A stretch of 64,000 nucleotides of DNA from Halobacteroides halobius DSM 5150 (GTDB lineage: Bacteria; Bacillota; Halanaerobiia; Halobacteroidales; Halobacteroidaceae), in NCBI RefSeq assembly GCF_000328625.1, contig NC_019978.1, positions 2,170,001 through 2,234,000 of the forward strand, written 5' to 3'. Below are positions 6,954-43,162 of the stretch, piece by piece. A program made the position numbers and the translations under genes. The notes beneath the pieces were generated by a model. That model was not told the origin of the DNA. It ran no database searches and saw only the letters and a program-made list of their open reading frames with translations. How positions within the stretch are numbered: position 1 is the stretch's first letter; each line of letters begins with the position of its first letter.

Positions 6954-8102
6954 ATGGCACATCTAAGAAAACGAGGCCAGAATAGTTGGCAAATCTGTAT
7001 TGAAAAAGGTCGTGATCCAATCACAGGTAAACGCAATAGGATTTATAAGACTGTTAATGGGACTAAGAAAGAAGCAGAAAAGGAAATGCATAAGTTGGCC
7101 CATGAAGTAGAAACTGGAGCTTATATAGAACCATCAGAAATGACAGTTAAAGAGTTTCTATTACAATGGTTTGAGGACTATTGTGAAAGTAACTTGGCCC
7201 CTTCTACTCTAGAAAGTTATGAGATAATTATCAAATCTCATCTAATCCCAGCTTTAGGTGATATCAAAGTCAGTGATCTAGAACCAATGCATATCAAAAG
7301 ATACCAGACTCATAAATTAAAGAATGGTCGTAGAGATGGTAAAGAAGGTGGCCTCTCCAAACGAACTGTTCAGTATCACCACCGAGTATTGTCTAAAGCT
7401 CTTAAACATGCTGTTAAATGGAGAATAATCGATAATAATCCCGCTGAAGTTATAGAAGCTCCATCACCAGATACTCCAGAGATTAAAGCACTAACTCATG
7501 ATCAAACTAAAAGGTTGCTTAATGTCGCTAAAGATTGGATTCATGATATAATTTATATTGCCTTATATACTGGAATGAGAAGAAGTGAAGTATTAGCCTT
7601 ACGGTGGCAAGATATAGATTTTAAAGAGCAGAAACTACAAGTCAAACAAGCAGTAACTAATCCTGTAGGCAAAGGATTAATCTTCAGAAAGCCAAAAACT
7701 GACTCAAGTATTCGACCAATTGATGTAGATGAAGATATAATTGAAATTTTAAAACGTAGAAAAAAAGAACAACAAGAAAATCAACTTAAATTTGGAGATA
7801 AATATAATAATGAATATAATCTTGTTTTCTGTAAACCAACTGGAGAACCTATGCGCCCCCAGACTGTTACTAGAAATTTTAATAGAGTAGCTAAAAAAGC
7901 TGAACTATCTCAATTTAGATTGCATGATTTAAGACACACTCACGCAACACTTATGCTCCAAGCAGGAGTTCATCCCAAAATAGTCCAGGAACGACTAGGC
8001 CATTCTACTATTAGCCAAACTTTAGACACCTACTCTCATGTAATCCCTTCTATGCAAAAAGAAGCAGTCCAAAAACTAAAAAATAGTCTTGAAAATAAGT
8101 AA
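6954..8102 (+). CDS. Tyrosine recombinase/phage integrase
   Basis: A 382-residue integrase, ATG 6954 behind AAAGGAGG. The N-terminal AP2-like arm-binding domain covers about residues 1-55, followed by a SAM-like core-binding domain (62-165). The catalytic domain shows TGMRRSE (first Arg), HDLRHTH (His-x-x-Arg) and the nucleophile in LDTYSHV. It catalyses integration at tRNA-Sec, whose 3' end lies 95 bases downstream. Two copies of AATGGCGAC right behind the gene (8101-8120) may be arm-binding sites. Confidence 0.93.
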   Translation: MAHLRKRGQNSWQICIEKGRDPITGKRNRIYKTVNGTKKEAEKEMHKLAHEVETGAYIEPSEMTVKEFLLQWFEDYCESNLAPSTLESYEIIIKSHLIPALGDIKVSDLEPMHIKRYQTHKLKNGRRDGKEGGLSKRTVQYHHRVLSKALKHAVKWRIIDNNPAEVIEAPSPDTPEIKALTHDQTKRLLNVAKDWIHDIIYIALYTGMRRSEVLALRWQDIDFKEQKLQVKQAVTNPVGKGLIFRKPKTDSSIRPIDVDEDIIEILKRRKKEQQENQLKFGDKYNNEYNLVFCKPTGEPMRPQTVTRNFNRVAKKAELSQFRLHDLRHTHATLMLQAGVHPKIVQERLGHSTISQTLDTYSHVIPSMQKEAVQKLKNSLENK

Positions 8103-8174: not shown

Positions 8175-8196
8175 TGAACCCTTGATATAATAAGGG

Positions 8197-8292
8197 CGGG
8201 AATATGTGGGAATCGAACCCACCACAGACAACTAAAGCTGCCTGCCACTGGATTTGAAGTCCAGGGTATCCACCATGGATACAGCCATTCCC
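8197..8292 (-). tRNA. selC: tRNA-Sec (anticodon UCA)
   Basis: A 96-nt tRNA with acceptor stem GGGAAUG/UAUUCCC, anticodon loop CUUCAAA (anticodon UCA) in the stem CUGGA/UCCAG, a long variable arm and a T loop GGUUCGAUUCC. The unusual length and the UCA anticodon identify selenocysteine tRNA. CCA is not encoded; G is the discriminator base. It follows selB by 76 bases on the same strand, so selA-selB-selC form one operon. Its 3' end is the likely attachment site of the neighbouring integrated element. Confidence 0.95.
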
Positions 8293-8368: not shown

Positions 8369-10282
8369 TTATTTGTCTTCTAAATGCCTTATATCTCCTT
8401 CTCTTTTAGTAACACCTTGTTTATCAAAATAATCTAATAAGGGCAAAGCATACTTGCGACTGCTATTTAATAGATCTCTAAATTGGGCCAAGCTTATCTG
8501 CCCTTCTTTAATCAAATATTCTCTTAGTAAACTTTTAGCCTTATCTAAAACTTGATGGTGAAGATATAAATTTTCTGCTACCTTGACTAATTTATTATTA
8601 GTAATTAAAAAATCAACAATCTCGGTAGCTAAATCTTCATTAGCAAAATCACTTATGACCTTCTCTAATCGAGGTGGTTGAAAACCTTGAGCATTAAATG
8701 AAGTTAAAATTTCTTCTTTTATCTTCTCTTCCTCAAGGTTAAATTCAACCTCAAAGTTCTCTAAACTCAGTTTAGCATCCTGTTCTTCAATCTTATTAGT
8801 CTGCTTTAAATCAGCTAATAACAAATCATACTGATTAGAATCTAATCTTAAACTTAACTTTGTCCTTAATTCTTCTTTATCAATCCCCCACCTAAGATGA
8901 TATTGTTGGTGATAATCTTGTAAATAGCTTATTATCTCTTCCCTTAATTGTTGAATGTGACTTTGGTGTAACCAGCTAGACTCTCGCCCAGTAGCTAATT
9001 CAACAACTCTACCATCTTCAACTAAGCTAGCTAATTTATTAGATAATTGTTTAGTTGATAAGCTTGTAATTTGAATTAATTCTTCAATTGATAAAGGCTT
9101 ACTAGTATTTCTTTTTAAAGCCAGCTCAATTCTTTCTTTACTACTTCCAACTTCCTTAATTTTTAAAGCTTTAATAGTATCTTCTTCAAACTTACGATGT
9201 CGAATTGGATTAGATTCTAAAATCTGTCCTCCTCCAATTGTAGTCATTGGAGAATACCGTCTTATAACATATCTTTCTTTAAAGTTGGCTACCACTTCTT
9301 CTTCCAATCTGAACTGGACCAATCCCTCTTCACCAGGATATAACTCTTCATTATCCAATAAATAAACTCTTCCTAGGACTTCTTCGGCCCCTAAGTGAAG
9401 TCTAATCCTATCTCCATGTTTTAAAATAAGAGGAGCAGATGATAACATTTCTAATCGTGCATCAAGATATTCTGTTTTAACTAAACTTTCCTTAGTAGCT
9501 AAAACATCTCCTCTATCTACCTCCTTAGTATCTACTCCAGACAAATTAATACCCACACGTTGCCCAGGATAAGCTGTTTCAACTCCTTTTTCATGAACTT
9601 GTAAACTACGGACTCGAACGTCAATTCCAGAAGGGTAAATTCTAAGTTTAGCCCCCTCTTTGATTTGGCCTTTAAGCAATGTTCCTGTTACAATAGTCCC
9701 ATGACCTGTCAGAGAAAAGACACGATCTATTGGAAAATAAGTATTGCCTGTTTTATCTTTAGTTGGAATATCTGCTATTACTTCTTCTATTTCTTCTTTT
9801 AATTTATCTATTCCGGTCTCCTCTACTGCTGAAACAGGAATAACAGAAGTTCCTTCTAAAAAAGTATCTTTTACAGCTTCTTTAATTTCGTATATTACTA
9901 AATTTAACCATTCATCATCAACTAAATCACTCTTGGTTACTGCTATTAGACCCTGCTTAACATTTAATAAATCTAAAATCTCCAAATGTTCTCTAGTTTG
10001 TTGCATAATAATTTCATCAGCAGCTACTACGAGTAATCCCAAGTCAACCCCACCAGCTCCAGCCAGCATATTCTTAATAAATTTCTCATGGCCTGGAACA
10101 TCAATAATTCCTACTTGTAAATCATCATTCAATTCTAAATGACTAAATCCTAACTCAATAGAAACACCACGTTCATTTTCTTCATCTAATCTATCAGTAT
10201 CTTGGCCAGTTAAAGCTTTAATTAAAGTTGTTTTTCCATGATCAACATGGCCAGCTGTTCCAATTATTAAATTTTTGCTCAT
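8369..10282 (-). CDS. selB: Selenocysteine-specific elongation factor
   Basis: A 637-residue translation factor that brings Sec-tRNA to UGA codons marked by a SECIS hairpin. GTPase motifs are at the N-terminus: GHVDHGKTT (residues 11-19), DVPGHEKF near 60, and TKSD near 118. EF-Tu-like beta barrels follow (about 175-340), then the long C-terminal winged-helix region (about 375-637) that in known SelB binds the mRNA hairpin. The ATG at 10282 lies two bases behind the selA stop, so translation is probably coupled. The substrates in this window are grdA and grdH. Confidence 0.96.
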   Translation of the reverse strand: MSKNLIIGTAGHVDHGKTTLIKALTGQDTDRLDEENERGVSIELGFSHLELNDDLQVGIIDVPGHEKFIKNMLAGAGGVDLGLLVVAADEIIMQQTREHLEILDLLNVKQGLIAVTKSDLVDDEWLNLVIYEIKEAVKDTFLEGTSVIPVSAVEETGIDKLKEEIEEVIADIPTKDKTGNTYFPIDRVFSLTGHGTIVTGTLLKGQIKEGAKLRIYPSGIDVRVRSLQVHEKGVETAYPGQRVGINLSGVDTKEVDRGDVLATKESLVKTEYLDARLEMLSSAPLILKHGDRIRLHLGAEEVLGRVYLLDNEELYPGEEGLVQFRLEEEVVANFKERYVIRRYSPMTTIGGGQILESNPIRHRKFEEDTIKALKIKEVGSSKERIELALKRNTSKPLSIEELIQITSLSTKQLSNKLASLVEDGRVVELATGRESSWLHQSHIQQLREEIISYLQDYHQQYHLRWGIDKEELRTKLSLRLDSNQYDLLLADLKQTNKIEEQDAKLSLENFEVEFNLEEEKIKEEILTSFNAQGFQPPRLEKVISDFANEDLATEIVDFLITNNKLVKVAENLYLHHQVLDKAKSLLREYLIKEGQISLAQFRDLLNSSRKYALPLLDYFDKQGVTKREGDIRHLEDK

Positions 10283-10284
10283 AA

Positions 10285-11697
10285 TTACCCCCTTATACTA
10301 TCTAGTGCTTCAACTATATAAGCAAAATCTTCATCTTGTAAAGTACGAAGATCTAATAAAACATTTCCTTTAGATATTCTAGTGAAAACAGGCGGATTAT
10401 TTAACCGTAATCTTTCTGCTATTTCTTCAGCACTTAATTCTTGATGGGCCAACTTAATTACATAAGTAGTTAACTCTTCTGTAGGAAATGCCCCTCCACC
10501 AGCTCGGGAAATATCTTGCTCAACTTTCAACTCAAATTGTAACGAAATTACTTTTTTAATCTTAGCAGCTAATTTTTCTGCTCGCTTCTTTAATTCATCT
10601 TCTGATACAGTTAACATTTGCAAAGTAGGAATTTCTCTTCTAGCATTTTCAATCTCTCTATACTCTTGTAAAGTAGCCTCTAAAGCCCCCAAAGTAAACT
10701 TATCAACTCGTAAAGCTCGATTTAATGAATGGGTTTTCATTTGATCAATATACTCCTTCTTACCTACAATTATTCCTGCTTGAGGACCTCCCAGCAATTT
10801 ATCACCACTAAAAGTTACTACATCAGCCCCAGCTTTGATACTATCTTGAACTGTCGGTTCATAACTTAGTCCCCATGGAGTTAAATCAACCAAAATCCCA
10901 CTACCAAGATCCTCTACTACAGGCACACCATGTTCACTACCTAATTCAACTAAACCCTTAAGAGAGACCTCTTTAGTAAATCCCACAACTTCATAATTAC
11001 TTGTATGTACCTTTAATAAAACCCCAGTTTTTTCATTAATAGCCCTCTTATAATCGGCCAAGTGGACCCGATTAGTAGTTCCTACCTCAGCTAATTTGAC
11101 TCCACTTTGTTTCATTACATCAGGTATCCGAAATGAACCTCCAATTTCAACCAATTGCCCTCTCGCAATAATAGCTTCTTTTCCTTGAGCCAAACTACTT
11201 AAAGCTAATAAAACAGCACTAGCATTATTATTAACTACTAAAGCTGCTTCAGCTCCAGTTAACTCTGTTAATAATTCTTCTACTATCTCATATCGAGACC
11301 CCCGCTCCCCACTTTCACGATTGATTTCTAAGGTGGAATACTTACTAGCTACTTGTTGTAATTTTTCCTTAGCTGCATCACATAATAAAGAACGCCCCAA
11401 ATTAGTATGGACTACAACTCCAGTAGCATTAACTACTGCCTTCAATTGATCACTTGTTTTATTAACTAAATATTCTTTTACCTGATCCAAAATTTCTTCT
11501 TTCTTTATCTTAAATTTATTTAATTTCTTTAACTCCATATCTAAAATTTGCTTCCTTAATTTATCAGTGACTTCTCTAATTCCTTCAACTACCAGTTGAC
11601 GAGGATAATCATTAATTAATTTCTGCCCTAAATCCATTGCTAATAAATCATTAACCGCTGGAATTTTTCTTAAATAACCTTGCTTTCTTTTATTCAT
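10285..11697 (-). CDS. selA: L-seryl-tRNA(Sec) selenium transferase
   Basis: A 470-residue PLP enzyme that converts Ser-tRNA(Sec) into Sec-tRNA(Sec) using selenophosphate. The PLP lysine is in TFSGDKLLGGPQAG; the N-terminal region typical of SelA (RKIPAVNDLL) and HTNLGRSLL are visible. The length is normal. ATG 11697 lies behind AAGGAG. It is the first gene of selA-selB-selC. A 38-bp palindrome 43 bases upstream may control it. No selD is present in this window. Confidence 0.96.
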   Translation of the reverse strand: MNKRKQGYLRKIPAVNDLLAMDLGQKLINDYPRQLVVEGIREVTDKLRKQILDMELKKLNKFKIKKEEILDQVKEYLVNKTSDQLKAVVNATGVVVHTNLGRSLLCDAAKEKLQQVASKYSTLEINRESGERGSRYEIVEELLTELTGAEAALVVNNNASAVLLALSSLAQGKEAIIARGQLVEIGGSFRIPDVMKQSGVKLAEVGTTNRVHLADYKRAINEKTGVLLKVHTSNYEVVGFTKEVSLKGLVELGSEHGVPVVEDLGSGILVDLTPWGLSYEPTVQDSIKAGADVVTFSGDKLLGGPQAGIIVGKKEYIDQMKTHSLNRALRVDKFTLGALEATLQEYREIENARREIPTLQMLTVSEDELKKRAEKLAAKIKKVISLQFELKVEQDISRAGGGAFPTEELTTYVIKLAHQELSAEEIAERLRLNNPPVFTRISKGNVLLDLRTLQDEDFAYIVEALDSIRG

Positions 11698-12598: not shown

Positions 12599-13480
12599 AT
12601 GAAATTACAGACTCTAAAAATGCTTGTTTGGTTAGCAGAATATAAGAGTTTTTCTATTGTTGCTAAACAACTAGATCTTACCCAACCAGCTGTTAGTATG
12701 CAAATAAAATCATTAGAAGAACAATTTGAGACCAACTTGATTACACGACAAAAAGGTAACATAGAATTAACTCCTGCTGGAAAAATAATTTACCACCAAG
12801 CTAAAAAAATACTAAATGATTGGGAAGAAGCAAAATTAAAAGTTAAACAAATTAAAGGAAAAACATATGATCATTTAACTATTGGTGCAAGCACCATCCC
12901 TTCTGAATATCTACTACCTAATTTATTAGCTAAGTTCTATAATAAACTACCTGAAGTAGAAACAACTGTGGAAGTTGGAGATAGCAAAGAAATAATAAAT
13001 CTACTAAAAAATAAAAAAATAGATCTAGCAATAGTCGGTTTAAAACCAGCTATTAATCAACTTCAAATTAAACCAATAGTTACCGATTCTTTAGTTTTAA
13101 TTGTTCCTCCTGACCACAGATTAGCTAATAAAAGACAAGTTAATAGCAAAGAATTAATAACAGAAAGAATTTTACTTCGAGAAAAAGGATCAGGCACTAG
13201 ACAAACTATGCTTACTGCTTTAGAAAACAATGGAATAAATAAAGAGAGTCTAAATATTAGAGCTTGCCTAGGCAGCAATGAAGCAATTATTTCAGCAGTA
13301 GCAGCTAAATTAGGAATTTCATTTATTTCCAATTTAGCTGCTAAAAATGCTACCCTCAATAATAGAATAGAAAAAATAGAAGTAACAGATATATCAACTA
13401 GTCGCAAATTTTATTTAGCTTATTATCACAACAGAGAAAAAGAACTACTAATTAAAGAGTTCAATAATCTTTGCTGTTAA
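12599..13480 (+). CDS. LysR-family regulator, selenium-metabolism type
   Basis: A 293-residue LysR protein. The N-terminal helix-turn-helix (FSIVAKQLDLTQPAVSMQIK) is followed by a periplasmic-binding-like effector domain (about 90-290). LysR proteins of this kind occur next to selA, yedF and cysteine desulfurase-like genes in selenium-using bacteria, and the same neighbours are here. The gene forms a short operon with the TetR gene. Its last 20 bases overlap the end of the convergent desulfurase gene. The effector molecule is not known from sequence. Confidence 0.85.
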   Translation: MKLQTLKMLVWLAEYKSFSIVAKQLDLTQPAVSMQIKSLEEQFETNLITRQKGNIELTPAGKIIYHQAKKILNDWEEAKLKVKQIKGKTYDHLTIGASTIPSEYLLPNLLAKFYNKLPEVETTVEVGDSKEIINLLKNKKIDLAIVGLKPAINQLQIKPIVTDSLVLIVPPDHRLANKRQVNSKELITERILLREKGSGTRQTMLTALENNGINKESLNIRACLGSNEAIISAVAAKLGISFISNLAAKNATLNNRIEKIEVTDISTSRKFYLAYYHNREKELLIKEFNNLCC

Positions 13481-14612
13481 TTATTTCTTGTAAGGCTTTT
13501 AAAAGCTGTTCTACTTCTTTTAAAGTATTAAAATAACTAAAACTAACTCTAACTGTTCCTGTATTATAAGTGCCGATACTTTGATGGGCCAAGGGAGCAC
13601 AATGAATTCCAGTCCGCACTGCAATATCATATTTGCTATTTAAGATATGTCCAATAGTAGCGGGCTCAACCCCCTTTACTCTAAAAGAAGTTACCCCCAC
13701 CTTATCTTGACCCATTTGAGAAGTAAGAATTTCTACTTCTTCTAATTTTTCTAAACCTATCATTAATTGCTCTACTAATTTCTCTTCTTGGGCTTTTATT
13801 TCTTCTAAAGTTGTCTTTTCAATAAATTCTATTCCTGCCTTAAGTCCTGCAACCCCTGGAGTATTTAACGTACCACTCTCATATTTATCAGGAAGCATAT
13901 CAGGGTTTAGTCTTTCTTTAGAACTACCACCAGTCCCTCCTTCTAATAATGGTTTAAATTTAATATCAGAAGTTAAATAAAGACCTCCTACACCTTGGGG
14001 GCCAAATAACCCTTTATGCCCCGTAAAAATAAGAAAATCCACCTTTAATTCTTGCACATCTAAAGGAACAATTCCTGCTGTCTGAGCTACATCAGTTAAA
14101 AAATATACTCCTTGTTGCTTAGCAATTTCTCCTACCTCTTTAATTGGCAAGATATTACCTGTTACATTAGAAGCATGGGTCATAGCAATTAACTTAGTTT
14201 GATCTGTAATAATACCTTCAATATTCTTTAAAAAAGCCTCTTTTCCCTCCTCAGTATCAACTACTGTTAAACTAATTATTCCTTCCTCTTCTAAACGGTG
14301 CAAAGGACGAGCTATAGCATTGTGCTCTAAACTACTAATTATCACATGATCTCCTTTTTCTAATAATCCTTTAAAAACAAGATTAGTTGCTTCAGTAGCA
14401 TTTTTAGTAAACACAATTTGTCTACTATCTGGAATATTAAAAAAGTTGGCCACTTTATTTCTAGCCTTAAAAATAACCCTACTAGCCTCTAAAGCAATCT
14501 GATGACTACCCCGACTAGGATTACCACTTTTATTACGTAAAACATCATCTACTGTCTGATAAACTATTTCCGGTTTCTGCCATGTAGTTGCAGCATTATC
14601 AAAATAGATCAT
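13461..14612 (-). CDS. Cysteine desulfurase/selenocysteine lyase-like PLP enzyme
   Basis: A 383-residue class V aminotransferase-fold protein. It begins IYFDNAATT, has the PLP lysine in FTGHKGLFGPQG (near residue 199) and the catalytic-loop cysteine in RTGIHCAPLAH (near 341). It would release sulfur or selenium from Cys or Sec to a carrier. With yedF, rhodaneses and a selenium-type LysR next to it, delivery of selenium toward selenophosphate is plausible but not proven. Its start overlaps the end of the membrane-protein gene by 4 bases. Confidence 0.88.
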   Translation of the reverse strand: MIYFDNAATTWQKPEIVYQTVDDVLRNKSGNPSRGSHQIALEASRVIFKARNKVANFFNIPDSRQIVFTKNATEATNLVFKGLLEKGDHVIISSLEHNAIARPLHRLEEEGIISLTVVDTEEGKEAFLKNIEGIITDQTKLIAMTHASNVTGNILPIKEVGEIAKQQGVYFLTDVAQTAGIVPLDVQELKVDFLIFTGHKGLFGPQGVGGLYLTSDIKFKPLLEGGTGGSSKERLNPDMLPDKYESGTLNTPGVAGLKAGIEFIEKTTLEEIKAQEEKLVEQLMIGLEKLEEVEILTSQMGQDKVGVTSFRVKGVEPATIGHILNSKYDIAVRTGIHCAPLAHQSIGTYNTGTVRVSFSYFNTLKEVEQLLKALQEIINSKDY

Positions 14613-15208
14613 ATTATCCTCCTCCTAATTAAGCTAACTAAAGAAATTATAAAAGCAATAGAAATTACTGCTTCTACTGAATCAGCAGTGACTATCTTGC
14701 CAGCAAATAAACTAGAACTAATCTTATTAAAACCTTTAATTCCATAACTTATTAAAACTGCTACAATCCCCAAATAAAAAATCTTTAAATTAAGTTCACT
14801 ACTAGCAAAATAAACTGACTTTTTATATAACTTATAAAATATAATAATAAAGGCTAAATAAAAAAATATAAATCCCACATTAGTACTAATACTTTGCAAG
14901 CTAAAATTTTGGTACTTAAAATCAAGTAGCAAATCAATAATATTACCCATACTTCCCATAATAGCCCCTATTAGTACTATAAAAATTGCTATTCTATCCT
15001 TCTGTTGAATAAATAATAAAATACTTAAATAAACAAAAATTGTAACTAAAAAAATTAAATTTGTACTTTGAGAAACTATACTTCCTAAATTAAAAATGGG
15101 TGTATAACGAAGATAATGGGTAAGATCAAAATAAAAATTAAATCCAGAAATCAAAATCATACTCATTGTAATTAGATATACAGAAGAAATTAACTTGCTA
15201 TCTTTCAT
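14609..15208 (-). CDS. Integral membrane protein of unknown function
   Basis: About 199 residues. GGTGGGAG selects ATG 15208; a GTG at 15220 falls within that ribosome site. Six hydrophobic segments cover most of the chain, with short polar loops (for example ATG MKDSKLISSVYLITM at the start and a final RRR after the last helix). I recognise no family. It overlaps the desulfurase gene by 4 bases and follows the exported rhodanese gene, so a part in moving or sensing sulfur or selenium compounds is possible, but this rests only on context. Confidence 0.7.
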   Translation of the reverse strand: MKDSKLISSVYLITMSMILISGFNFYFDLTHYLRYTPIFNLGSIVSQSTNLIFLVTIFVYLSILLFIQQKDRIAIFIVLIGAIMGSMGNIIDLLLDFKYQNFSLQSISTNVGFIFFYLAFIIIFYKLYKKSVYFASSELNLKIFYLGIVAVLISYGIKGFNKISSSLFAGKIVTADSVEAVISIAFIISLVSLIRRRII

Positions 15209-15275
15209 CTCTACTCCCACCTTCTATTGATACTAAGAGAAGATATGCGTATATCTTCTCTTAGATTTAAATTCT

Positions 15276-16967
15276 CTACTTTCTTGGGTCTCCATATTCT
15301 ATTGGATTATCAGGATTTTTACTCCACACATACCAACCACCATCATAAACACTAATATCTTTCCAGCCCATCAAATAAGCCATAAAGAAAGCTTCACTTG
15401 CTCTCCAACCAGTTCCACAGAAAAAGCTAACTTCTTTATTAGAAGTAATCCCCCATTCTTTCCACATCTCTTTAATCTGTGGATAACTTCTTAGCGTACC
15501 ATCTACATTTTCAAAATGCTCCATATGATAAGCATCAGAACCAGCATGTCCCCATACTGCTCCAGCAATCCGTCCTTTAGGCTCAATATAACTATAACCA
15601 CTTGTCTTACCAATATATTCAGCCCAACTTCTAATACTAACTAATTCAGCATTTGGATCCTTAAGAATTTCTTTAGCCTGACGAGTATTAATAATATAAT
15701 TTGGATTCACAGGAACATCAGCACCAAAATCAGCTACAGCAGTTGGCTGGTTAACTTTCTTTTCTAACCTATAGCCTGCTTCTTGCCAAGCTTTTAAATT
15801 ACCATTTAGTAACCGAACATCCTCTACTCCAGCATACATCATTGCTGATGCTGCTCGAGCAGCTGCCATAGTAGAATTACTCCCATATAAAACTACCGTA
15901 GTATCTGTTGTAATTCCTAATTTCTCTAAATAATCTTCTAATTTTTCATCTGCTACAATATTCCAGTCAGGCTTACCTTCAATCCCATTAGTATTTAAAT
16001 GAATAGCCCCAGGAATATGTCCCTGCTTATACTTTTTAGGCTCTCCATAACTTACTTCCACAATTTTATAGTCATTACGATCTTTGTTGTTAATTAATTT
16101 TTTAACCCAAGCTGGATAAACTAACTTTTGATAGTTGGCTAGTTTCTTCATTGGTAAATCATCATTTGCTGCCCAAGTACTAATTCCTGCCTTATAAACA
16201 ACTACATTATTATATCCTAGATTCATTAGCTTGTTAGCTACTGTAGTACTTTTAGCACTACCATAACCATATACTACAACTTTTTTATCTTTTGTAACAC
16301 CTTTCTTCTTTAAAACAGATTTTAATTTTTTAGCTTTCAATTTATTTGCTAAAGAATAAGGTAATTGAGCTGCACCTTTAATATGTCCCCCTCTAACTTC
16401 TCCTTTTAACTTCCAACCATTATATGCAACATCACTACGAACATCAACTACTGCTAAACTCTCTGCTCCTAATTTAGTTGCTAGTTCTTCTGTAGTAATA
16501 ATTTCTACCTTTTTATTAGCTAATAACTGTTCATAGGGCCAACCAGCCTGTCCACCTTCTAAAATATAAAGTCGCTGTTCTTTAATACCTTGCGAAGATA
16601 AATATTTATATGTTCTTTCGGCTCCTCCACCACCCCGTGGACAGACAATTACAATATCATTATTTGACTTCTTAAGTTGTGGTAAAATTTTATCTAACTT
16701 AGCTTGATCCTGTTTTGATTTTACTGGATAGGCAGATGTGCTAATTGCTCCTTGGATATGATGCTTCTTAAAATCTTCTTGTGGTTGAATATCTACTAAG
16801 AAGAAGTCTTTTTCCTGCTCTATGCTTTGCTTTAACTTCTTAGGAGCATAATATTTAAAATTACTTCCTCCTATTAACCAATCAAAAAACCCAGCCATTG
16901 TTACCGTACTTACTGCAAAAACCATTACTAAAGATAGTACTGTGATTAATCCATATTTCTTCTTCAT
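15276..16967 (-). CDS. Exported protein with four rhodanese domains
   Basis: A 563-residue sulfurtransferase-like protein with an N-terminal signal segment (LITVLSLVMVFAVSTVTMA). Four rhodanese domains follow, at about residues 38-150, 155-275, 280-410 and 425-560. Cysteine is kept in the active-site loops of domain 1 (CPRGGGGAER, C109) and domain 4 (CGTGWRAS, C517). Domains 2 and 3 lack it (YGYGSAKS, YGSNSTMA) and are probably structural. It acts outside the cytoplasm. The first 150 residues and the ribosome site are nearly identical to the rhodanese gene at 18097, so the two arose by duplication. Confidence 0.88.
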   Translation of the reverse strand: MKKKYGLITVLSLVMVFAVSTVTMAGFFDWLIGGSNFKYYAPKKLKQSIEQEKDFFLVDIQPQEDFKKHHIQGAISTSAYPVKSKQDQAKLDKILPQLKKSNNDIVIVCPRGGGGAERTYKYLSSQGIKEQRLYILEGGQAGWPYEQLLANKKVEIITTEELATKLGAESLAVVDVRSDVAYNGWKLKGEVRGGHIKGAAQLPYSLANKLKAKKLKSVLKKKGVTKDKKVVVYGYGSAKSTTVANKLMNLGYNNVVVYKAGISTWAANDDLPMKKLANYQKLVYPAWVKKLINNKDRNDYKIVEVSYGEPKKYKQGHIPGAIHLNTNGIEGKPDWNIVADEKLEDYLEKLGITTDTTVVLYGSNSTMAAARAASAMMYAGVEDVRLLNGNLKAWQEAGYRLEKKVNQPTAVADFGADVPVNPNYIINTRQAKEILKDPNAELVSIRSWAEYIGKTSGYSYIEPKGRIAGAVWGHAGSDAYHMEHFENVDGTLRSYPQIKEMWKEWGITSNKEVSFFCGTGWRASEAFFMAYLMGWKDISVYDGGWYVWSKNPDNPIEYGDPRK

Positions 16968-16991
16968 TATATAACCTCCTAATTTTTATAA

Positions 16992-17561
16992 TTATACTTT
17001 AACTACTCCATTAGAATTAAGCGAGTCCAATATTTCGTACATATTACTAATGTTACCAATCTCTAATTTCTCTTCTAATCCATAATAATCTAAACAAGTT
17101 CCACAAGACAAAATAGTTACTCCTTTAGCTTCTAATTCTTTTAAATGTTCTTTAGCTTCTTGATTTAAAGTTGGCACTTTAACCCCACTGTTGATAAAAA
17201 TAATCTTATTAGGCACAGGAGTTACATTTAACAAAGTACTGATAAATCCTTTCATCAAAACGTTCCCTAATTCTTCTGCTCCTTCTCCTAAAGTAGCGCT
17301 AGTAATAAAGTAAACCTTTCCTTGACTATCTTCTTTATCTTCTGTTGTTTCATCAGCTAACTTTTCAATTGTTAATTTATAATAATTCTCTTCCTCTAAA
17401 GTACTAACTTTACAGTTCATTTTCTTAGCTAACTTAGCCACATTCTCTGCTTGTACCTGATCATCAACAGTTACAATTACCTTATCTTCTTCTTCTAAAG
17501 CTTGTTTAGTCTTAACCACAGGTTTTGGACAATCAAGTCCTCTAGCATTTAATTCTTTCAT
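16992..17561 (-). CDS. yedF: Selenium metabolism protein YedF (TusA-like plus DsrE-like)
   Basis: About 189 residues. AGGAG with an 8-base gap selects ATG 17561; the GTG at 17570 touches that site. The N-terminal 75 residues are TusA-like with LNARGLDCPKPVV (Cys near 10). The second half is DsrE-like with TILSCGTCLDYYGL, two cysteines near residue 155. Proteins of this two-domain type accompany selenium-using pathways and are thought to handle sulfur or selenium as persulfide or perselenide. It stands upstream of the four-domain rhodanese gene. Confidence 0.9.
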   Translation of the reverse strand: MKELNARGLDCPKPVVKTKQALEEEDKVIVTVDDQVQAENVAKLAKKMNCKVSTLEEENYYKLTIEKLADETTEDKEDSQGKVYFITSATLGEGAEELGNVLMKGFISTLLNVTPVPNKIIFINSGVKVPTLNQEAKEHLKELEAKGVTILSCGTCLDYYGLEEKLEIGNISNMYEILDSLNSNGVVKV

Positions 17562-17638
17562 CACTACCACTCCTCTGTAAAATATTTAATTAAAACAAAT
17601 AAAACTAAAATTTTCTCTCTTCTTTACAAAATTTTAAT

Positions 17639-17971
17639 CTACCTTTCTTCTTCATCCTCAATAAATCTCTCCATTACCCAAACAGCTACTTCACCAGTGA
17701 TTTGAATACAGTGGTTGGCCCGTTGTTCCTGACTACCAAAATCATCAAAATCTTTAGTAAATACTCGACAACAAGTAGAACCATATTCTTCTTTGATATG
17801 TAAATCAGCATTAGCTGGAAAACATTCTTCTGACATAGCAGCTCCTGGTTAAGTTCGACCATAATTAAGTCCTAAAGCCATAACTCCACCACTAACTGCT
17901 CCACATAGACATTTTGATTTTCCAATTCCAATGGAGAAACCAGAAGCTAATTTAACCATCTCAGGCGGCAT
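17639..17971 (-). pseudogene. C_GCAxxG_C_C-type redox protein with in-frame TAA
   Basis: From ATG 17971 the frame reads 40 codons (LASGFSIGIGKSKCLCGAVS, then MALGLNYGRT), then TAA at 17849-17851, then 69 more codons in the same frame (PGAAMSEECF to the end, including YGSTCCRVF). The family usually has GRTKPG here, so AAA to TAA is the likely change. The N-terminal part with the first conserved cysteine also appears missing. The stop is TAA, not TGA, so selenocysteine is excluded. The downstream part could still be made from ATG 17836. Confidence 0.7.
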
Positions 17972-18096
17972 TTCCTCTACTATTAATTCATTATTATTAC
18001 CTTCTTTTTATAAATTAAACTTATACTCAGTATAAATAATTTATATCATTATAATGAATTCTATGTTTGAAATATTATTCCTTCTTTTACATAAAC

Positions 18097-19368
18097 TTAA
18101 TTTTCTAACTTTAGTTCTTTAAGATTGGCCCATCTATAAAATGACTGATCATAATTTTCAGCCTTATTATAACCCATTATTCTTAAAACAAGTGTTAAAT
18201 AAGCTGAGCGAATACCTCCTGTGCAATAACTAGCAATCTGGTCACCTTTTCTAAGACCAGCTTCTTTAAATATTTTTTCTAATTTTTGCGGACTCTTTAA
18301 ATTCCCGTTTTGGTCTAACAAATTTTTATAAGGAAGCGAAATAGCACCTGGAAGATGGCCTCCTCTGGCTTCACCAAAATTAGTTGCCCCTTGATATTCA
18401 TTTTCACTTCTACTATCTAAAATCTTAATCTGATTAGTATTAATTATCCAATCTTTATTAAGTTCTGTTATCTTTAAATCACTACTTTGTGTTTTAACAT
18501 TTTGTTTAGATACTGGATAATTATTCTTTTGCCAATAACTCCAGCCGCCATCTAAAATTTTGGTATTTTTTATTCCGGCCATTCTTAACATCCAAACAAT
18601 TCTACCTTCTTCTCCCCAACCTTGTGGAGAAATAGCATAAACAACTATATTTTTATTTTTTGCTACTCCAATGTTAGATAATTTTTCTGCTAATTTATCT
18701 GCACTCAGTACTGTACCCCACTTTTTATCTCCAGGCTTTCCATTCATATTACAAAATTGCTGCCAAGTTACTGCTACTGCTCCTGGAATATGTCCATTAT
18801 CATAAGCTTCTTTTCCTCTAGCATCTAACACTAATAGATTATCATTATTTAAGTTGTTAAGCAGCCAAGTTGGCCCTGTAATAAAACTACTATTTGGATA
18901 CTCACTATAATCTCTTTGTGCCAATAAATTATTATATGGCCAACCTTTCTGTCCATTTTCTAATATATATAATCTCTTTTCCTTTATTCCTTGAGAAGAT
19001 AAATATTTATATGTTCTTTCAGCTCCTCCACCACCTCGAGGACAAACAATTACAATATCATTATCTGACTTTTTAAGTTGTGGTAAAATCTTATCTAACT
19101 TAGCTTTATCTTGCTTTGATTTTACTGGATAAGCAGATGTACCAATAGCCCCTTGAATATGGTGCTTCTTAAAATCTTCTTGTGGTTGAATATCTACTAA
19201 TAAAAATTCCTTTTCCTTCTCTATACTTTGCTTTAACTTCTTAGGAAAATAATATTTAAAATTACTTTCTCCTATTAACCAATCAAAAAACCCGGCCATT
19301 GTTACCGTACTTACTGCAAAAACCATTACTAAAGATAGTACTGTGATTAATCCATATTTATTCTTCAT
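18097..19368 (-). CDS. Exported protein with three rhodanese domains
   Basis: About 423 residues, ATG 19368 behind AGGAGG. It has the same signal segment as the 15276 gene and then three rhodanese domains (about 38-150, 160-285, 295-420). Active-site cysteines are in domain 1 (CPRGGGGAER, C109) and domain 3 (CTGGIRSA, C382). Domain 2 has YAISPQGWG in place of a cysteine loop. Domains 2 and 3 resemble the common two-domain thiosulfate sulfurtransferases rather than the 15276 protein, so the N-terminal part was probably swapped or duplicated onto a different enzyme. Confidence 0.87.
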   Translation of the reverse strand: MKNKYGLITVLSLVMVFAVSTVTMAGFFDWLIGESNFKYYFPKKLKQSIEKEKEFLLVDIQPQEDFKKHHIQGAIGTSAYPVKSKQDKAKLDKILPQLKKSDNDIVIVCPRGGGGAERTYKYLSSQGIKEKRLYILENGQKGWPYNNLLAQRDYSEYPNSSFITGPTWLLNNLNNDNLLVLDARGKEAYDNGHIPGAVAVTWQQFCNMNGKPGDKKWGTVLSADKLAEKLSNIGVAKNKNIVVYAISPQGWGEEGRIVWMLRMAGIKNTKILDGGWSYWQKNNYPVSKQNVKTQSSDLKITELNKDWIINTNQIKILDSRSENEYQGATNFGEARGGHLPGAISLPYKNLLDQNGNLKSPQKLEKIFKEAGLRKGDQIASYCTGGIRSAYLTLVLRIMGYNKAENYDQSFYRWANLKELKLEN

Positions 19369-19393
19369 TATATAACCTCCTAATTTTTTATAA

Positions 19394-19516
19394 TTATATT
19401 TCAACTACTGCACTAAAAGTATCTAAACCTAATTCTTCTGCTCCACATAAACATTTAAACTTTCCAATTCGAATGGGAAAACCAGAAGCTAAATTAACCT
19501 TTTTGTTCTGTTGCAT
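19394..19516 (-). pseudogene. Remnant of C_GCAxxG_C_C-type gene
   Basis: A 40-codon frame contains VNLASGFPIRIGKFKCLCGA, nearly the same as a segment of the broken gene at 17639, then diverges and stops just before the rhodanese gene. It looks like the leftover of a duplicated unit of C_GCAxxG gene plus rhodanese. Confidence 0.6.
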
Positions 19517-38563: not shown

Positions 38564-41500
38564 ATGAAAATTAATTATATCAAAAAAAGAGATGATAGAA
38601 AAGTTCCATTTGAAAAGGAAAAAATTGAAACAGCAATTCTAAAAGCAATGAAAGCTGTAGATAGAGATAATAAACAAATTGCTCAAGAAGTAACTGAAGA
38701 AGTTTTATCTTATCTTAAAATAATCGCCAAAAGTAACAGCATCCCTACTGTAGAACAAATTCAAGACTTAGTAGAAAAAAGCTTGATTGAAAAAGGGGAA
38801 GCTGAAATAGCCAAATCATATATTCTTTATCGAGAACAACACGCTAGATTAAGACATACAGAAGAATTATTTAGTGATGCTATTAATGCAATTGATAGTT
38901 ATTTAGATCGTAGTGATTGGAAAGTTAATGAAAATAGTAACATGGGATATTCCCTACAAGGATTAAATAATCATATCTCCTCTGAAGTAACTGCTCAATA
39001 CTGGTTACAAGAAATTTATCCTCAAGAAATTAGAACAGAACATAAATCTGGTTCCTTACATATTCATGATTTAGGTAACTTAGCTGTTTATTGTTGTGGT
39101 TGGAATCTTAAAGATTTATTATTAAATGGTTTTGGAGGAGTTTCAACTAAAGTAGAAAGTAATCCTCCTAAACACTTTAGAACTGCTCTGTTACAGACTG
39201 TTAACTTCTTTTATACTTTACAAGGAGAAGCAGCAGGTGCACAAGCTCTATCTAACTTTGATACCTACTTAGCTCCTTTTATCCACTATGATGATTTAAG
39301 TTATGAAGAAGTTAAACAAGGCATGCAAGAATTTATTTATAATTTAAATGTACCTACTAGAGTTGGATTTCAAACTCCATTTACAAATATTACTATGGAT
39401 TTAAATGTACCACAGATGATGAAAGATGAACCAGTAATCATTGGTGGCGAATATCAAGATGAAACTTATGGTGAATTCGAAGTAGAGTTAGATATGTTCA
39501 ACAAAGCCTTTGCTGAAGTGATGCTAGAAGGGGATAAAAAAGGGAGAGTCTTCTCATTCCCAATTCCTACTTATAATATAACGGATGATTTTAATTGGGA
39601 TAATGAAGTGCTAGAGCCTGTTTGGGAAATGACAGCCAAGTATGGCATCCCGTATTTCTGTTTAGATGAAGATACTAATATAATTACAAATAATGGTATT
39701 AAGAAAGTTAAAGATTTAAATATAGATACAGATAAAGTTTTAGGAGAAGACAATAAATTTTATGAAGTTACTAATTACTTTAAAAATGAACATTCTGAAT
39801 ATATTAAGATAGAAACAAAAAATAATAATACAATAAAATCTTCTAAAAATCACAAATTTCCAACTAATAATGGTCTTAAAAAAGCTATTGACCTATCATT
39901 AAATGATAAGTTGTATGAACACAAAACAGAATTAGTATTTGAAAATGGTTTTAAGTTATCATATAAAAACCAATCATACTTTGATATTTATGATAAAAAT
40001 GATAATAAAATAACATTTGAGAATATAAACAAAGAAAATATACAAGAATTTTATTATTTAAAACCTACAGTTAGAGAAATGAAATCATTATCAGATTTTA
40101 ATTATCCAAAAAATAGATATCAAACAACCTTAAAAGAAATTGATATTCCTAAAGAATTAGATACGGATATTTTTGAAATAATAGGAGAATTATTAGGAGA
40201 TGGCTATTTACCTAAAAATAAAAATTCTATAAGATTAACTAGTAATGATGATGAAATTATAAATTTCTTTTCTGAAACTATAAAATATAAATTTGGACTT
40301 GATACAAAAATTTGTCAAGCTGGTAATAGCGACACATGCTTAGAGGCAAATGTTAATTCAGCAATGTTAAAATCATATTTACAACATCTTGGCTTAAAAT
40401 TTGGTATAGGTAGTGAAAAAGAAATACCTTCTATTGTATATCATAGAAGTGATGCTGAAATATCAGCTTTATTAAGAGGACTATTTGATACTGATGGGTC
40501 TATTACTATAAATAATAATGGAAATCCTAATATATCTTTAGTATTAAAAAATCACAAATTATTACAACAAGTATTAGAGTTATTAATGTTTTTAGGAATT
40601 GTAGCTTCTTACAAAGATACAGATGATAAATATGGAAAAATTAATATACATGGCTCTAAAAATATTAATTTATTCAAAGAAAAAATAGGATTTAGAATAA
40701 ATAGAAAAAATAATAGATTACAAAAGAATAAGAAAAAACAAACAGTTCTAGGTGATAAAATAATTACTAAAGAACAATCATTTGAAATGTTTGGAAATGA
40801 TCACAGACAATATTATGATAAGGAAATGTTTAGAATAAAAGAAAATGGTAACGGTATCTACCTATTCACTGCTGAATTTAATAAATATAAAAATAAAGTA
40901 GACATATCAAATTTAAAACTTATTAACAATACTCTTAAATCTGTAGATATAACTGTAAATAGTAATAGTCATTTATTTACTTTATCTAATGGAATTATAA
41001 CTCATAATTCTAATATGGTAAATTCTGATGTAAATCCCGAAGATGTAAGAAGTATGTGTTGCAGATTGCGGCTATCAAACAAAGAACTGCGTAAACGTGG
41101 TGGTGCTCTATTTGGCTCTAATCCTATGACCGGATCGATTGGGGTAGTAACAATTAATATGCCACGAATTGGTTACTTAGCAGAAGATAAAGAAGAATTT
41201 ATTAAGCGAGTTTATGAACTAATGGATATAGCGCAAGAAAGTCTAGAAATTAAACGTAAAGTACTAGAAAGATTAACTGACAATGGTCTGTATCCTTATA
41301 GTAAATTTTATCTACGAGGAATTAAAGAGCGCTTTGATGAATACTGGAAAAATCACTTTAATACAATTGGACTTAATGGGATGAATGAAGCTCTACTTAA
41401 CTTTATGGGCCAAGATATAGCTAGTGAAGAAGGTAGACAATTTGCCATAGAAGTCATGGAAGCAATGCGAGAAAGACTAGTCGATTACCAAGAAGAGACA

Positions 41501-43162
41501 GGTAATATCTATAACTTAGAAGCTACTCCAGCCGAAGGAACTTCTTATCGCTTTGCTAACTTAGATAAGCAAAAGTTTGGTGCTGATATTATCTGTGCTA
41601 ATCAAGAACGAGTTAGAAATGAGGATGCTGATCCATACTATACTAACTCTACTCAGCTTCCTGTTGGTCATACAACTGATATCTTCGAGGCTTTCCAATT
41701 ACAGGATCCATTACAGAAACGTTATAATGGGGGCTGTATTGAAAAAGGAAATAAAGTTTTAACTGATAAAGGTTCAATGAAAATTGAAAATATCGTTAAT
41801 AACTATGAAGATCTAAAACCAATTAAGGCATTAAGCTATAACCCTGATAAAAAAGAAGCGGAATGGGATCTAATTACAGATGCAATGTCAATTGATGTGA
41901 CACATAATGATAAAATTAGAGTTAAAGGGGAAAAAGGATTAGATATAACTACTAGTGATTGGCATCCATTCTTTGTTTTAGAAAAAATTCCTGTTGATAA
42001 AAAATGTCCTATTTGTGATAAGGAAGTAGCCGGAGTAAGAGGTTTTGCAGGACATATGAAATATTCATCAAAATGCAGAGAAAAATACAATAAGTTGAAT
42101 AAATATCAGGTAGTAGAAAAAAGAGCTGATGAATTAAAAGAAGGGGATTATATCTTACAAAATAGTGATAATTTATATCCTGAGCAAGAAACTAACTTAG
42201 ACCAAGATTTAATGTGGTTAATTGGTTACTTTATCGGTGATGGATGCATCAGTCAGTTTAAAGATAATCGAGGCGGAAATAATTTAACCAAATATAAACT
42301 TAGATTATTTGATGCTAATAAACAAAATCTTGTTAAAGCTAAAAAAATTATTAATGAAAACTTTAATGCTGATATTAATGTAATCCAGAATGATAAACGA
42401 AGTAATAAATTGTATCATCTAATAACTTCTAAACAAGATGTAATAGACTTCTTCTTTAATTATGGTTTTTCAGCTGGAGAAAAAACTTATGATGTCAAAA
42501 TAACTTCTGAAGTTAAATCAGAACTTAATGCTCAAAATATTTATAGTTTATTATCAGGTTTATTAGATAGCGATGGTCATATTAATAAACGATATGGTAA
42601 TGGTGAGTATTATACAGTTTCCGAGAATCTAGCAAATGATCTAGTAGAAATCTGTAGTCAAGCCGGAATCATGGTAGCCCAAGAAGATAAACCAACTAAC
42701 AGAGAAAATGAAGTAGATGGTTTTAGAATTACAATTCCTGCTTATCAAATGACAATGTTAAAAGATAAATTAACAATTGTGAATGATAAAAAATATATCA
42801 AAGATGATTTATCAAACAGAAAATTAAGACAGTTACCTGTAGTAAGAGTAACTGCAACAACTAAAGTAGATATTGAAGACAATCAATTTTATGATTTAAC
42901 TACTAAAAATAATCATAATTATTTAGCTGGAAACAACACTATGGTATTTATTCATAATACTGTACTCCACGGCTTCTTAGGAGAAAGAATGCCATCAGTA
43001 GCCAGTACTAAAAAGTTAGTTAAAAGATTAGCTGATAACTTTGAACTACCTTATTACTCTATCACACCTACTTTCAGTATTTGTCCAAAACATGGCTATT
43101 TAGCTGGAGAACATGAATACTGCCCTAAGTGTGATGCTGAAATAGGTTATCAGGAAGAATAA
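38564..43162 (+). CDS. nrdD: Anaerobic ribonucleotide reductase large chain with two inteins, lacking the glycyl-radical loop
   Basis: A 1532-residue precursor of class III ribonucleotide reductase. Residues 1-90 are an ATP-cone. Inteins occupy 366-815 and 1058-1465, so the spliced protein has about 674 residues. Extein motifs include AVYCCGWNLKDLL, DVRSMCCRLRL (active-site Cys pair) and, after joining, YNGG-TVLHGFLGE. The chain ends with a zinc-type CPKHGYLAGEHEYCPKCD region where other NrdD proteins continue into RVxGY, the glycyl-radical loop. That loop is absent here and is found in a separate small gene at 43893. The enzyme makes deoxynucleotides without oxygen and is activated by NrdG. 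Confidence 0.95.
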   Translation: MKINYIKKRDDRKVPFEKEKIETAILKAMKAVDRDNKQIAQEVTEEVLSYLKIIAKSNSIPTVEQIQDLVEKSLIEKGEAEIAKSYILYREQHARLRHTEELFSDAINAIDSYLDRSDWKVNENSNMGYSLQGLNNHISSEVTAQYWLQEIYPQEIRTEHKSGSLHIHDLGNLAVYCCGWNLKDLLLNGFGGVSTKVESNPPKHFRTALLQTVNFFYTLQGEAAGAQALSNFDTYLAPFIHYDDLSYEEVKQGMQEFIYNLNVPTRVGFQTPFTNITMDLNVPQMMKDEPVIIGGEYQDETYGEFEVELDMFNKAFAEVMLEGDKKGRVFSFPIPTYNITDDFNWDNEVLEPVWEMTAKYGIPYFCLDEDTNIITNNGIKKVKDLNIDTDKVLGEDNKFYEVTNYFKNEHSEYIKIETKNNNTIKSSKNHKFPTNNGLKKAIDLSLNDKLYEHKTELVFENGFKLSYKNQSYFDIYDKNDNKITFENINKENIQEFYYLKPTVREMKSLSDFNYPKNRYQTTLKEIDIPKELDTDIFEIIGELLGDGYLPKNKNSIRLTSNDDEIINFFSETIKYKFGLDTKICQAGNSDTCLEANVNSAMLKSYLQHLGLKFGIGSEKEIPSIVYHRSDAEISALLRGLFDTDGSITINNNGNPNISLVLKNHKLLQQVLELLMFLGIVASYKDTDDKYGKINIHGSKNINLFKEKIGFRINRKNNRLQKNKKKQTVLGDKIITKEQSFEMFGNDHRQYYDKEMFRIKENGNGIYLFTAEFNKYKNKVDISNLKLINNTLKSVDITVNSNSHLFTLSNGIITHNSNMVNSDVNPEDVRSMCCRLRLSNKELRKRGGALFGSNPMTGSIGVVTINMPRIGYLAEDKEEFIKRVYELMDIAQESLEIKRKVLERLTDNGLYPYSKFYLRGIKERFDEYWKNHFNTIGLNGMNEALLNFMGQDIASEEGRQFAIEVMEAMRERLVDYQEETGNIYNLEATPAEGTSYRFANLDKQKFGADIICANQERVRNEDADPYYTNSTQLPVGHTTDIFEAFQLQDPLQKRYNGGCIEKGNKVLTDKGSMKIENIVNNYEDLKPIKALSYNPDKKEAEWDLITDAMSIDVTHNDKIRVKGEKGLDITTSDWHPFFVLEKIPVDKKCPICDKEVAGVRGFAGHMKYSSKCREKYNKLNKYQVVEKRADELKEGDYILQNSDNLYPEQETNLDQDLMWLIGYFIGDGCISQFKDNRGGNNLTKYKLRLFDANKQNLVKAKKIINENFNADINVIQNDKRSNKLYHLITSKQDVIDFFFNYGFSAGEKTYDVKITSEVKSELNAQNIYSLLSGLLDSDGHINKRYGNGEYYTVSENLANDLVEICSQAGIMVAQEDKPTNRENEVDGFRITIPAYQMTMLKDKLTIVNDKKYIKDDLSNRKLRQLPVVRVTATTKVDIEDNQFYDLTTKNNHNYLAGNNTMVFIHNTVLHGFLGERMPSVASTKKLVKRLADNFELPYYSITPTFSICPKHGYLAGEHEYCPKCDAEIGYQEE
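39659..41008 (+). mobile_element. Intein 1 in NrdD, LAGLIDADG homing endonuclease type
   Basis: 450 residues, beginning with Cys (CLDEDTNIITN) and ending GIITHN before Ser+1 (SNMVNSD). Block B is at SSKNHKFPT. Two dodecapeptide motifs are IIGELLGDGY and LLRGLFDTDGS, with their Asp residues intact, so the endonuclease may be active. It interrupts GIPYF-SNMVNSDV next to the conserved Cys pair. The intein is more AT-rich than the extein. Confidence 0.93.
41735..42958 (+). mobile_element. Intein 2 in NrdD, LAGLIDADG type with zinc-finger-like insert
   Basis: 408 residues, beginning with Cys (CIEKGNKVLTD) and ending MVFIHN before Thr+1 (TVLHGFLGE). Block B is at TTSDWHPFF. Dodecapeptide motifs are LIGYFIGDGC and LLSGLLDSDGH. 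Between the splicing domain and the endonuclease a CPICDKEV...GHMKYSSKC segment has the CxxC-x12-H-x6-C spacing of a zinc finger. The insertion site is the conserved catalytic YNGG-T region of NrdD. Confidence 0.93.

Follow-up and report, generated by a model that had tools for sequence, protein, structure and literature searches.

Two proteins built from several rhodanese domains are encoded side by side in Halobacteroides halobius DSM 5150, among genes for the use of selenium, which raises the question of what family they belong to and whether selenium has any part in their role. The window analyzed here is the whole stretch of 64,000 nt at positions 2170001-2234000 of a single-contig genome of 2,649,255 bases, and the two genes are named rhodA and rhodB. 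By its sequence, RhodA belongs in its last three domains to the YnjE/EanB family, on the YnjE side, with a single-domain rhodanese fused in front, and RhodB consists of the RhodA front domain followed by a two-domain sulfurtransferase. The family itself is already known; new here are the N-terminally extended YnjE-type sulfurtransferase and its rearranged second copy within a selenium island. Because relatives of RhodA recur beside selenium genes and co-occur with SelD, we favor, with about equal expectation of being right or wrong, the reading that RhodA is an exported YnjE-family chalcogen carrier of the cell's selenium-utilization set, together with yedF, a cysteine desulfurase and a LysR regulator. 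Throughout, export of RhodA, RhodB and the YnjE branch (signal peptide or lipobox) was judged by eye from the N-termini; labels in G denote genomes of the halanaerobial search and labels in L denote loci, including a named collection of 80 relatives, and papers given by PMC number are cited from excerpts.

Domain composition and family of RhodA and RhodB

Four rhodanese domains were recognized by Pfam in RhodA and three in RhodB. RhodA has only two cysteines, C109 and C517, so that an earlier note on this DNA was right in describing one protein with four rhodanese domains and just two cysteines; the 423-aa form of RhodB has three (C109, C206 and C382). Domain D1 of RhodA (residues ~36-150) is a single-domain rhodanese with C109 in the motif CPRGGGG, and D2-D4 (residues ~153-563) form a YnjE-type three-domain sulfurtransferase with C517 in the loop CGTGWR. 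The D2-D4 part matched the E. coli YnjE/EanB family at E about 1e-106 or better, and phmmer comparisons of RhodA, with alignments over all three domains, gave 360 bits against YnjE and 367-375 bits against EanB structures. An AlphaFold model of RhodA from 30 aligned sequences reached a mean predicted local distance difference test score (pLDDT) of 84.1, mostly >90 in D2-D4 and about 50-80 in D1, and its best structural matches were EanB and then YnjE, with target-normalized template modeling (TM) scores of 0.90-0.92 (0.90 each for YnjE 3ipo and EanB 6ktv).

E. coli YnjE (PDB 2wlr, 3ipo; b1757) resembles RhodA in its three rhodanese domains, in the one catalytic cysteine of a last-domain CGTGWR, in the TM score of about 0.9 over D2-D4 and in its side of the tree described below; YnjE has an N-terminal export signal, and RhodA seems by eye to have one. 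RhodA differs from it by the extra N-terminal rhodanese domain and by adjoining yedF and selenium genes, whereas E. coli ynjE sits behind ydjXYZ-ynjABCD.

A scan of one genome per species across 84,980 species yielded at least 553 confirmed relatives, of which the best 80 were kept and sorted by eye: 21 carried a signal peptide or lipobox and 59 did not, L146 being counted among the latter although no rhodanese open reading frame is listed there. These 80 sequences, E. coli YnjE, EanB and six halanaerobial proteins made up the 88 rows of a quick, unrooted tree with support from the Shimodaira-Hasegawa-like approximate likelihood ratio test (SH-aLRT). One branch (SH-aLRT 99) separated RhodA, YnjE and 26 other exported or halanaerobial proteins from EanB and 59 cytosolic-looking ones, and the two sides of this branch are hereafter referred to as YnjE-type and EanB-type.

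The last domain is the only one whose loop cysteine is kept throughout the six halanaerobial proteins; the D1 cysteine is kept in both window copies, in G009 and G011, and in a lipoprotein of G010 that consists of D1 alone. The gene of the latter lies 5' of two CGGC genes and a VTT/DedA gene; its place is taken in G034 by a three-domain YnjE-type gene together with the membrane gene of the latter; and the four-domain gene of G011 overlaps a CGGC pair. Fused and separate forms of D1 and YnjE thus share a context. RhodA D2-D4 are 80% identical to the G009 protein (L073), whereas the proteins of G009 and G011 (L074), which are of one genus, are 56% identical to each other, a conflict with kinship that suggests horizontal transfer.

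Residues ~153-423 of RhodB matched the two-domain thiosulfate/mercaptopyruvate sulfurtransferases 8k55, 3aax and 3hwi at about 90 bits, and RhodB differs from SseA and other such enzymes by its fused D1; against the cut-off of 250 of the SseA model NF008557, RhodB scored 96.1 bits and RhodA 107.3. ExtH, from a Geobacter selenite/tellurite cluster (NF040901; PMC5877670), is like RhodA a multi-rhodanese protein, and is tied to selenite; an ExtH-type selenite reduction operon was rejected as a candidate, as RhodA scored 63.2 bits against the NF040901 cut-off of 200. In the genome of L079 (7917-15579), a second exported two-domain sulfurtransferase has YedE-like halves, TusA and two CGGC-like genes as neighbors at a distance of a few kb (by eye).

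The rhodanese unit and its rearrangement

The genes of the unit and of its selenium-related flank are the following, in window coordinates.

8195-8292, minus strand: selC, tRNA-Sec, anticodon tca
8369-10282, minus strand: selB (by eye), resembling a selB-like start in G011
10285-11697, minus strand: selA (family models)
12599-13480, plus strand: LysR regulator, selenium metabolism-associated (NF040786)
13461-14612, minus strand: cysteine desulfurase (TIGR01977), overlapping the membrane gene by 4 nt
14609-15220, minus strand: 203-aa membrane protein without a Pfam family
15276-16967, minus strand: rhodA, exported (by eye) four-rhodanese protein of 563 aa
16992-17570, minus strand: yedF (TIGR03527), 24 nt upstream of rhodA
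17639-17992, minus strand: large C_GCAxxG_C_C pseudogene remnant, residues 36-149 of 153, with an in-frame TAA and indels
18097-19368, minus strand: rhodB, with the leader and D1 of rhodA, then an unrelated two-domain thiosulfate/mercaptopyruvate-type sulfurtransferase with C382 in CTGGIR
19394-19498, minus strand: small second C_GCAxxG remnant just upstream of rhodB, a 20-residue core running into a stretch like the last codons of a yedF copy

YedF (202.0 bits against TIGR03527, cut-off 110), the LysR regulator (288.1 bits, cut-off 250) and the desulfurase (485.9 bits, cut-off 377) all exceeded their curated cut-offs, which bears out the neighbors that the earlier note had given to the rhodaneses; the desulfurase stayed under the cut-off of the selenocysteine lyase SclA (NF040779, 376.9 vs 525). 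With gaps of 24 nt between yedF and rhodA, 55 nt between rhodA and the membrane gene and -4 nt between the latter and the desulfurase, yedF through the desulfurase look like one transcription unit. Scans gave no excess of promoter-like (30 vs 28.3 expected) or terminator-like sites (2 vs 2.4 expected); a 14-pair hairpin between rhodA and the membrane gene was scored on the plus strand. A TetR regulator gene lies between the LysR gene and selA. On the other flank stand a methyl-accepting chemotaxis gene and ackA, and then a betaine/glycine reductase operon (named by eye), whose GrdA and GrdB have an in-frame TGA at the selenocysteine positions. Flanked by selC-selB-selA-LysR_Sec on one side and by the selenocysteine-dependent betaine reductase operon on the other, the rhodanese unit lies inside a selenocysteine island.

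RhodA and RhodB are 89.5% identical over residues 1-152, their genes form a repeat of 300 nt at 86%, and the ~45 nt 5' of both, including the ribosome site, are near-identical; identity collapses at about codon 150. The description first given, of about 150 nearly identical N-terminal residues with a common leader and ribosome site and with different later domains, was accurate. RhodB measures 435 aa if started at the listed TTG (19404) and 423 aa if started at the ATG (19368); the shared AGGAGG precedes this ATG, and the TTG is upstream of the shared ribosome site. Synonymous divergence (dS) between the two genes was 0.04 over codons 1-40 (1 change in 24 sites) and 0.59 over codons 41-152 (27.5 changes in 67.5 sites; Fisher test on rounded counts, 6e-4), which suggests that the leader was homogenized later or is constrained. 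The ratio of nonsynonymous to synonymous divergence (dN/dS) of 0.17 over codons 1-152 (0.14 over codons 41-152) points to purifying selection on the shared part since the split.

A leader ending in TMAGFFDWL is common to rhodA (16848-16967), rhodB (19249-19368) and the G011 rhodanese. The same leader (60%) is found on an unrelated ABC substrate-binding protein adjoining the G011 rhodanese (L074 7507-8328 and 8473-10269), and the YnjE-type protein of a Desulfohalobiaceae metagenome-assembled genome (L099, from 1815) starts with a similar AMAGLLDWITG.

Judged from their reading frames, both C_GCAxxG pieces are broken pseudogene remnants of a gene that is intact in the G009, G011 and G032 loci. 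The large one aligns with residues 36-149 of the 153 of intact relatives, lacks the N-terminus and is interrupted by the TAA and indels; it is the sole PF09719 match in the genome, over the cut-off at 74.6 bits with a frame that is not intact. Recoding of the in-frame stop was ruled out by the TAA codon itself, the missing N-terminus and the indels. The frame directly 5' of rhodB holds 20 residues of the C_GCAxxG core (80% to G011) and continues into DNA matching the end of yedF and the yedF-rhodA spacer (84% over 37 nt; 87% over 62 nt), and the protein-level match of this stretch to yedF was not significant. The claim that each rhodanese follows a C_GCAxxG fragment therefore stands for rhodB, directly, but not for rhodA, which follows yedF, with the remnant 5' of yedF. 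The simplest history fitting these sequences would begin with a tandem duplication of a C_GCAxxG-yedF-rhodanese unit; the upstream copy would then have lost a segment reaching from C_GCAxxG into yedF, and the YnjE domains of rhodB would have given way to a two-domain sulfurtransferase, presumably in this order. Neither a rhodB-like fusion nor the donor of its C-terminal part was found in the 60 other genomes searched, the best match by E-value rank being 33% identical over that part (G025).

Selenium genes beside YnjE-type relatives

In G032 and G037, which belong to a different family of the class, a double-cubane reductase, an activase, the selenium/sulfur carrier DUF3343, a YnjE-type gene, a small membrane protein, C_GCAxxG and yedF follow in this order, with a LysR gene and a desulfurase in addition in the G032 run and selD (by eye) in that of G037. 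Linkage family models were run on G011 and G032 members, except for yedF, which was searched by its own model. Photobacterium chitinilyticum (L115) has in one run a YnjE-type gene, a desulfurase, a reductase, an activase, a DUF3343-like gene (by eye) and yedF (129.3 bits; cut-off 110); the other six Photobacterium loci are without such a run. Within about 10 kb, G011 carries selA, the start of selB and two double-cubane reductases, and the 10-kb contig of G009 carries a double-cubane reductase and C_GCAxxG. The tie between rhodanese and selenium genes, which the earlier note had drawn from one strain, is thus conserved in other Halanaerobia (G032, G037, G011) and in P. chitinilyticum, while the two-copy arrangement occurs in no other of the 61 genomes searched. 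In the named collection, 3/21 YnjE-type loci (L115, L122, L126) vs 0/59 EanB-type loci had a yedF-like, DUF3343 or sel gene within about 10 kb (Fisher test, 0.016), with short flanks in many loci lowering both counts and generic desulfurase matches (eight EanB-type loci) left out.

A family of small membrane proteins with no Pfam match (three members scanned) lies directly 3' of the YnjE-type gene in 10 of the 21 named loci, close by but on the opposite strand in one more (L100), at three of the six halanaerobial loci (G032, G034, G037) and at seven of the eight non-centre loci of a Clostridia sample, and the 59 EanB-type loci yielded no member; as the profile was seeded with YnjE-type neighbors, these counts are descriptive and not a blind test. 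The 203-aa protein of the window is 29% identical over 194 aa (E 6e-23) to the one that follows the YnjE-type gene in Tepidibacter formicigenes (L102), a member of another membrane family.

SelD was over its cut-off in 20/20 YnjE-type vs 17/29 EanB-type genomes compared (Fisher test, 5.6e-4). In the sample of 291 genomes of the class Clostridia, YnjE-type matches (E up to 1e-60; three of the six non-centre ones shortened and lacking the first domain) occurred in 7, centre included, all of them with SelD, which was present in 66/291 overall; without the centre the count is 6/6 (hypergeometric, 1.1e-4). Both comparisons ignore phylogeny and the molybdenum cofactor (Moco). The class of Thermosyntropha was uninformative, with the co-occurrence in 1/63 genomes, the centre itself.

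An independent-component study of E. coli placed ynjE with ynjXYZABCD (as printed), yedEF and yjiLM in one uncharacterized iModulon, for which its authors proposed molybdenum and selenium usage (PMC7888660). YnjE, YedF and YjiLM are thereby together as in YnjE-type loci, where a YjiM/YjiL-like reductase and activase (annotation PMC9068703) adjoin the YnjE-type gene in G032, G037 and L115; the iModulon is, however, a co-expression of four operons, whereas here the genes are physically clustered and the reductase is unmatched in the window's genome. The earlier remark that no described system of this composition was known is not supported, since RhodA D2-D4 are of the YnjE/EanB family and E. coli ynjE was already in a module with yedEF and yjiLM (PMC7888660). 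The E. coli LysR protein YgfI was rejected as a candidate regulator: yjiM, yjiL, ynjE and ydjY are lower in the ygfI mutant, together with numerous genes for fermentation and hydrogenases, so that the effect is unspecific (PMC9068703). The selenium-trait clusters of Lin et al. 2015 (PMC5322559) have selA/selB, LysR_Se, YedF, DUF3343 and the Sec lyase family in common with this locus and its relatives, and also a 2-hydroxyglutaryl-CoA dehydratase-like subunit with its activase; unlike at the rhodA locus, no exported rhodanese is named among the cluster genes in the excerpted text. Excerpts of the open-licence literature, in which subscription journals are largely missing, named no exported rhodanese in a selenium gene set, save the E. 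coli module.

A similar gene set surrounds the YnjE-type gene in Thermosyntropha (L100 9890-19005) and in E. coli K-12 (L194 402-8404), comprising (partly by eye) two DedA/VTT proteins, a 4Fe-4S protein, ABC transporter parts and a CDP-alcohol phosphatidyltransferase-like gene. A connection of DedA with selenite is made in a paper cited by PMC10127716; it carries no weight in the argument here.

Selenium carrier or sulfur enzyme

Rhodaneses carry sulfur on their loop cysteine. A selenium-substituted rhodanese has been proposed as a delivery form of selenium (cited in PMC8538045 and PMC5877670), a role that is debated and of unclear physiological relevance (PMC8538045). As a chalcogen carrier, RhodA would use C517 of the CGTGWR loop to bind, outside the membrane, a chalcogen in the zero-valent state, either sulfane sulfur or selenium in the form of a perselenide; C109 of the front domain may serve to load C517 or to receive its cargo. 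The chalcogen would be handed towards the cytoplasm with the help of the neighboring membrane protein, and YedF and the desulfurase might pass it on for the selenophosphate and selenocysteine of the nearby betaine reductase. RhodB would be a second exported sulfurtransferase, derived from the duplicated unit by the internal deletion and the swap of its YnjE part.

More broadly, and with considerable doubt, the YnjE branch, joined in Firmicutes by the small membrane partner, could constitute a conserved extracytoplasmic system for acquiring selenium, in which the rhodanese captures selenium as perselenide and the membrane protein delivers it towards SelD. If true, gene context would give rhodanese selenium delivery a physiological setting, and rhodA and rhodB would represent its elaboration in a halophile, with a second carrier domain fused on. 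YnjE has been solved structurally with its purpose unclear, and how selenium reaches SelD if not as free selenide is a long-standing question (PMC8538045). The SelD co-occurrence, the clustering with yedF, DUF3343 and double-cubane reductase, and the E. coli module lead to one claim, that YnjE is a selenium gene, by which a selenium role of this poorly understood family is now testable; the small membrane family behind lipoprotein YnjEs provides a second handle.

Several points weigh against a selenium role. Just 3/21 YnjE-type loci of the named collection have a clear selenium marker nearby, and two of these have it at a distance (about 8 kb in Caloramator L122; in L126, selA at about 6 kb and on the opposite strand). 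The YnjE-type rows are not independent, 7/21 being Photobacterium, and in G034 the YnjE-type gene has no selenium genes near it and is not near the yedF of that genome. Part of the selenium set seems gone from the window's genome, in which the double-cubane reductase model found no match and no C_GCAxxG gene is intact. The placement of D1 relative to D2-D4 in the RhodA model is not reliable (pLDDT <50 at residues 139-151). The SelD comparison covers 20 of the 21 YnjE-type genomes (L115 left out) and 29 of the 59 EanB-type ones, and leaves out the window's own genome. In RefSeq, E. coli ynjE is labeled a molybdopterin synthase sulfurtransferase, so that molybdenum enzymes, formate dehydrogenase for instance, could account for the SelD tie; the correlation cannot separate selenium from a molybdenum-plus-selenium formate dehydrogenase.

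It is possible, although we do not expect it, that RhodA and RhodB are general extracytoplasmic sulfane-sulfur enzymes, for thiosulfate or polysulfide, and that the selenium genes are mere neighbors. E. coli YnjE and PspE are periplasmic rhodaneses that were tested on thiosulfate, which PspE, and YnjE weakly, turns into cellular sulfane sulfur (PMC10215317); RhodB resembles thiosulfate/mercaptopyruvate sulfurtransferases, and 18/21 YnjE-type loci are without selenium genes nearby. The presence of SelD in 20/20 and 7/7 YnjE-type genomes would, however, be unexpected for a general sulfur enzyme, and the selenium linkage recurs in Photobacterium as well as in Halanaerobia. Molybdopterin synthase is cytoplasmic, whereas the YnjE branch has signal peptides or lipoboxes (by eye), which makes it unlikely that YnjE-type proteins serve Moco sulfuration and that SelD accompanies them because selenocysteine formate dehydrogenase needs both. 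That account would agree with the RefSeq label of ynjE, with the molybdenum and selenium usage proposed in the co-expression paper (PMC7888660), and with the formate dehydrogenase with an in-frame TGA near the G011 rhodA.

Loss of function at a decaying locus, with rhodB a junk chimera and the role of the unit lost along with the C_GCAxxG and double-cubane reductase genes, would explain the two remnants, the missing reductase and the lack of a rhodB-like fusion in 60 other genomes. We consider it very unlikely, as both rhodanese frames are intact and the shared part shows the low dN/dS given above. Even less probable is ergothioneine synthesis outside the cell by EanB-like anaerobic chemistry, which came up because EanB (the anaerobic ergothioneine synthase of Chlorobium limicola; 6ktv, 6h98) was the best solved match, at about 370 bits, and because its catalytic Tyr353, Cys412 and Arg417 (PMC10903977) align with Y458, C517 and R522 of RhodA. 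The same residues are kept in YnjE too, and RhodA, unlike EanB, seems by eye to be exported, lacks EanB cysteines 339 and 370 and falls on the other branch; with 0 matches to the histidine methyltransferase PF10017 in the genome, this candidate was set aside. The reading of RhodA as a carrier within the selenium set is the one we retain.

Elsewhere in the window, a tyrosine-type integrase and phage-like genes (6954-8102, by eye) lie directly beside the tRNA-Sec gene, which looks like the insertion of an element at selC. A 1532-aa anaerobic ribonucleotide reductase-like protein (38564-43162) seemingly contains two intein-like insertions (by eye), and 52614-53777 encodes a reverse transcriptase like those of group II introns (by eye).

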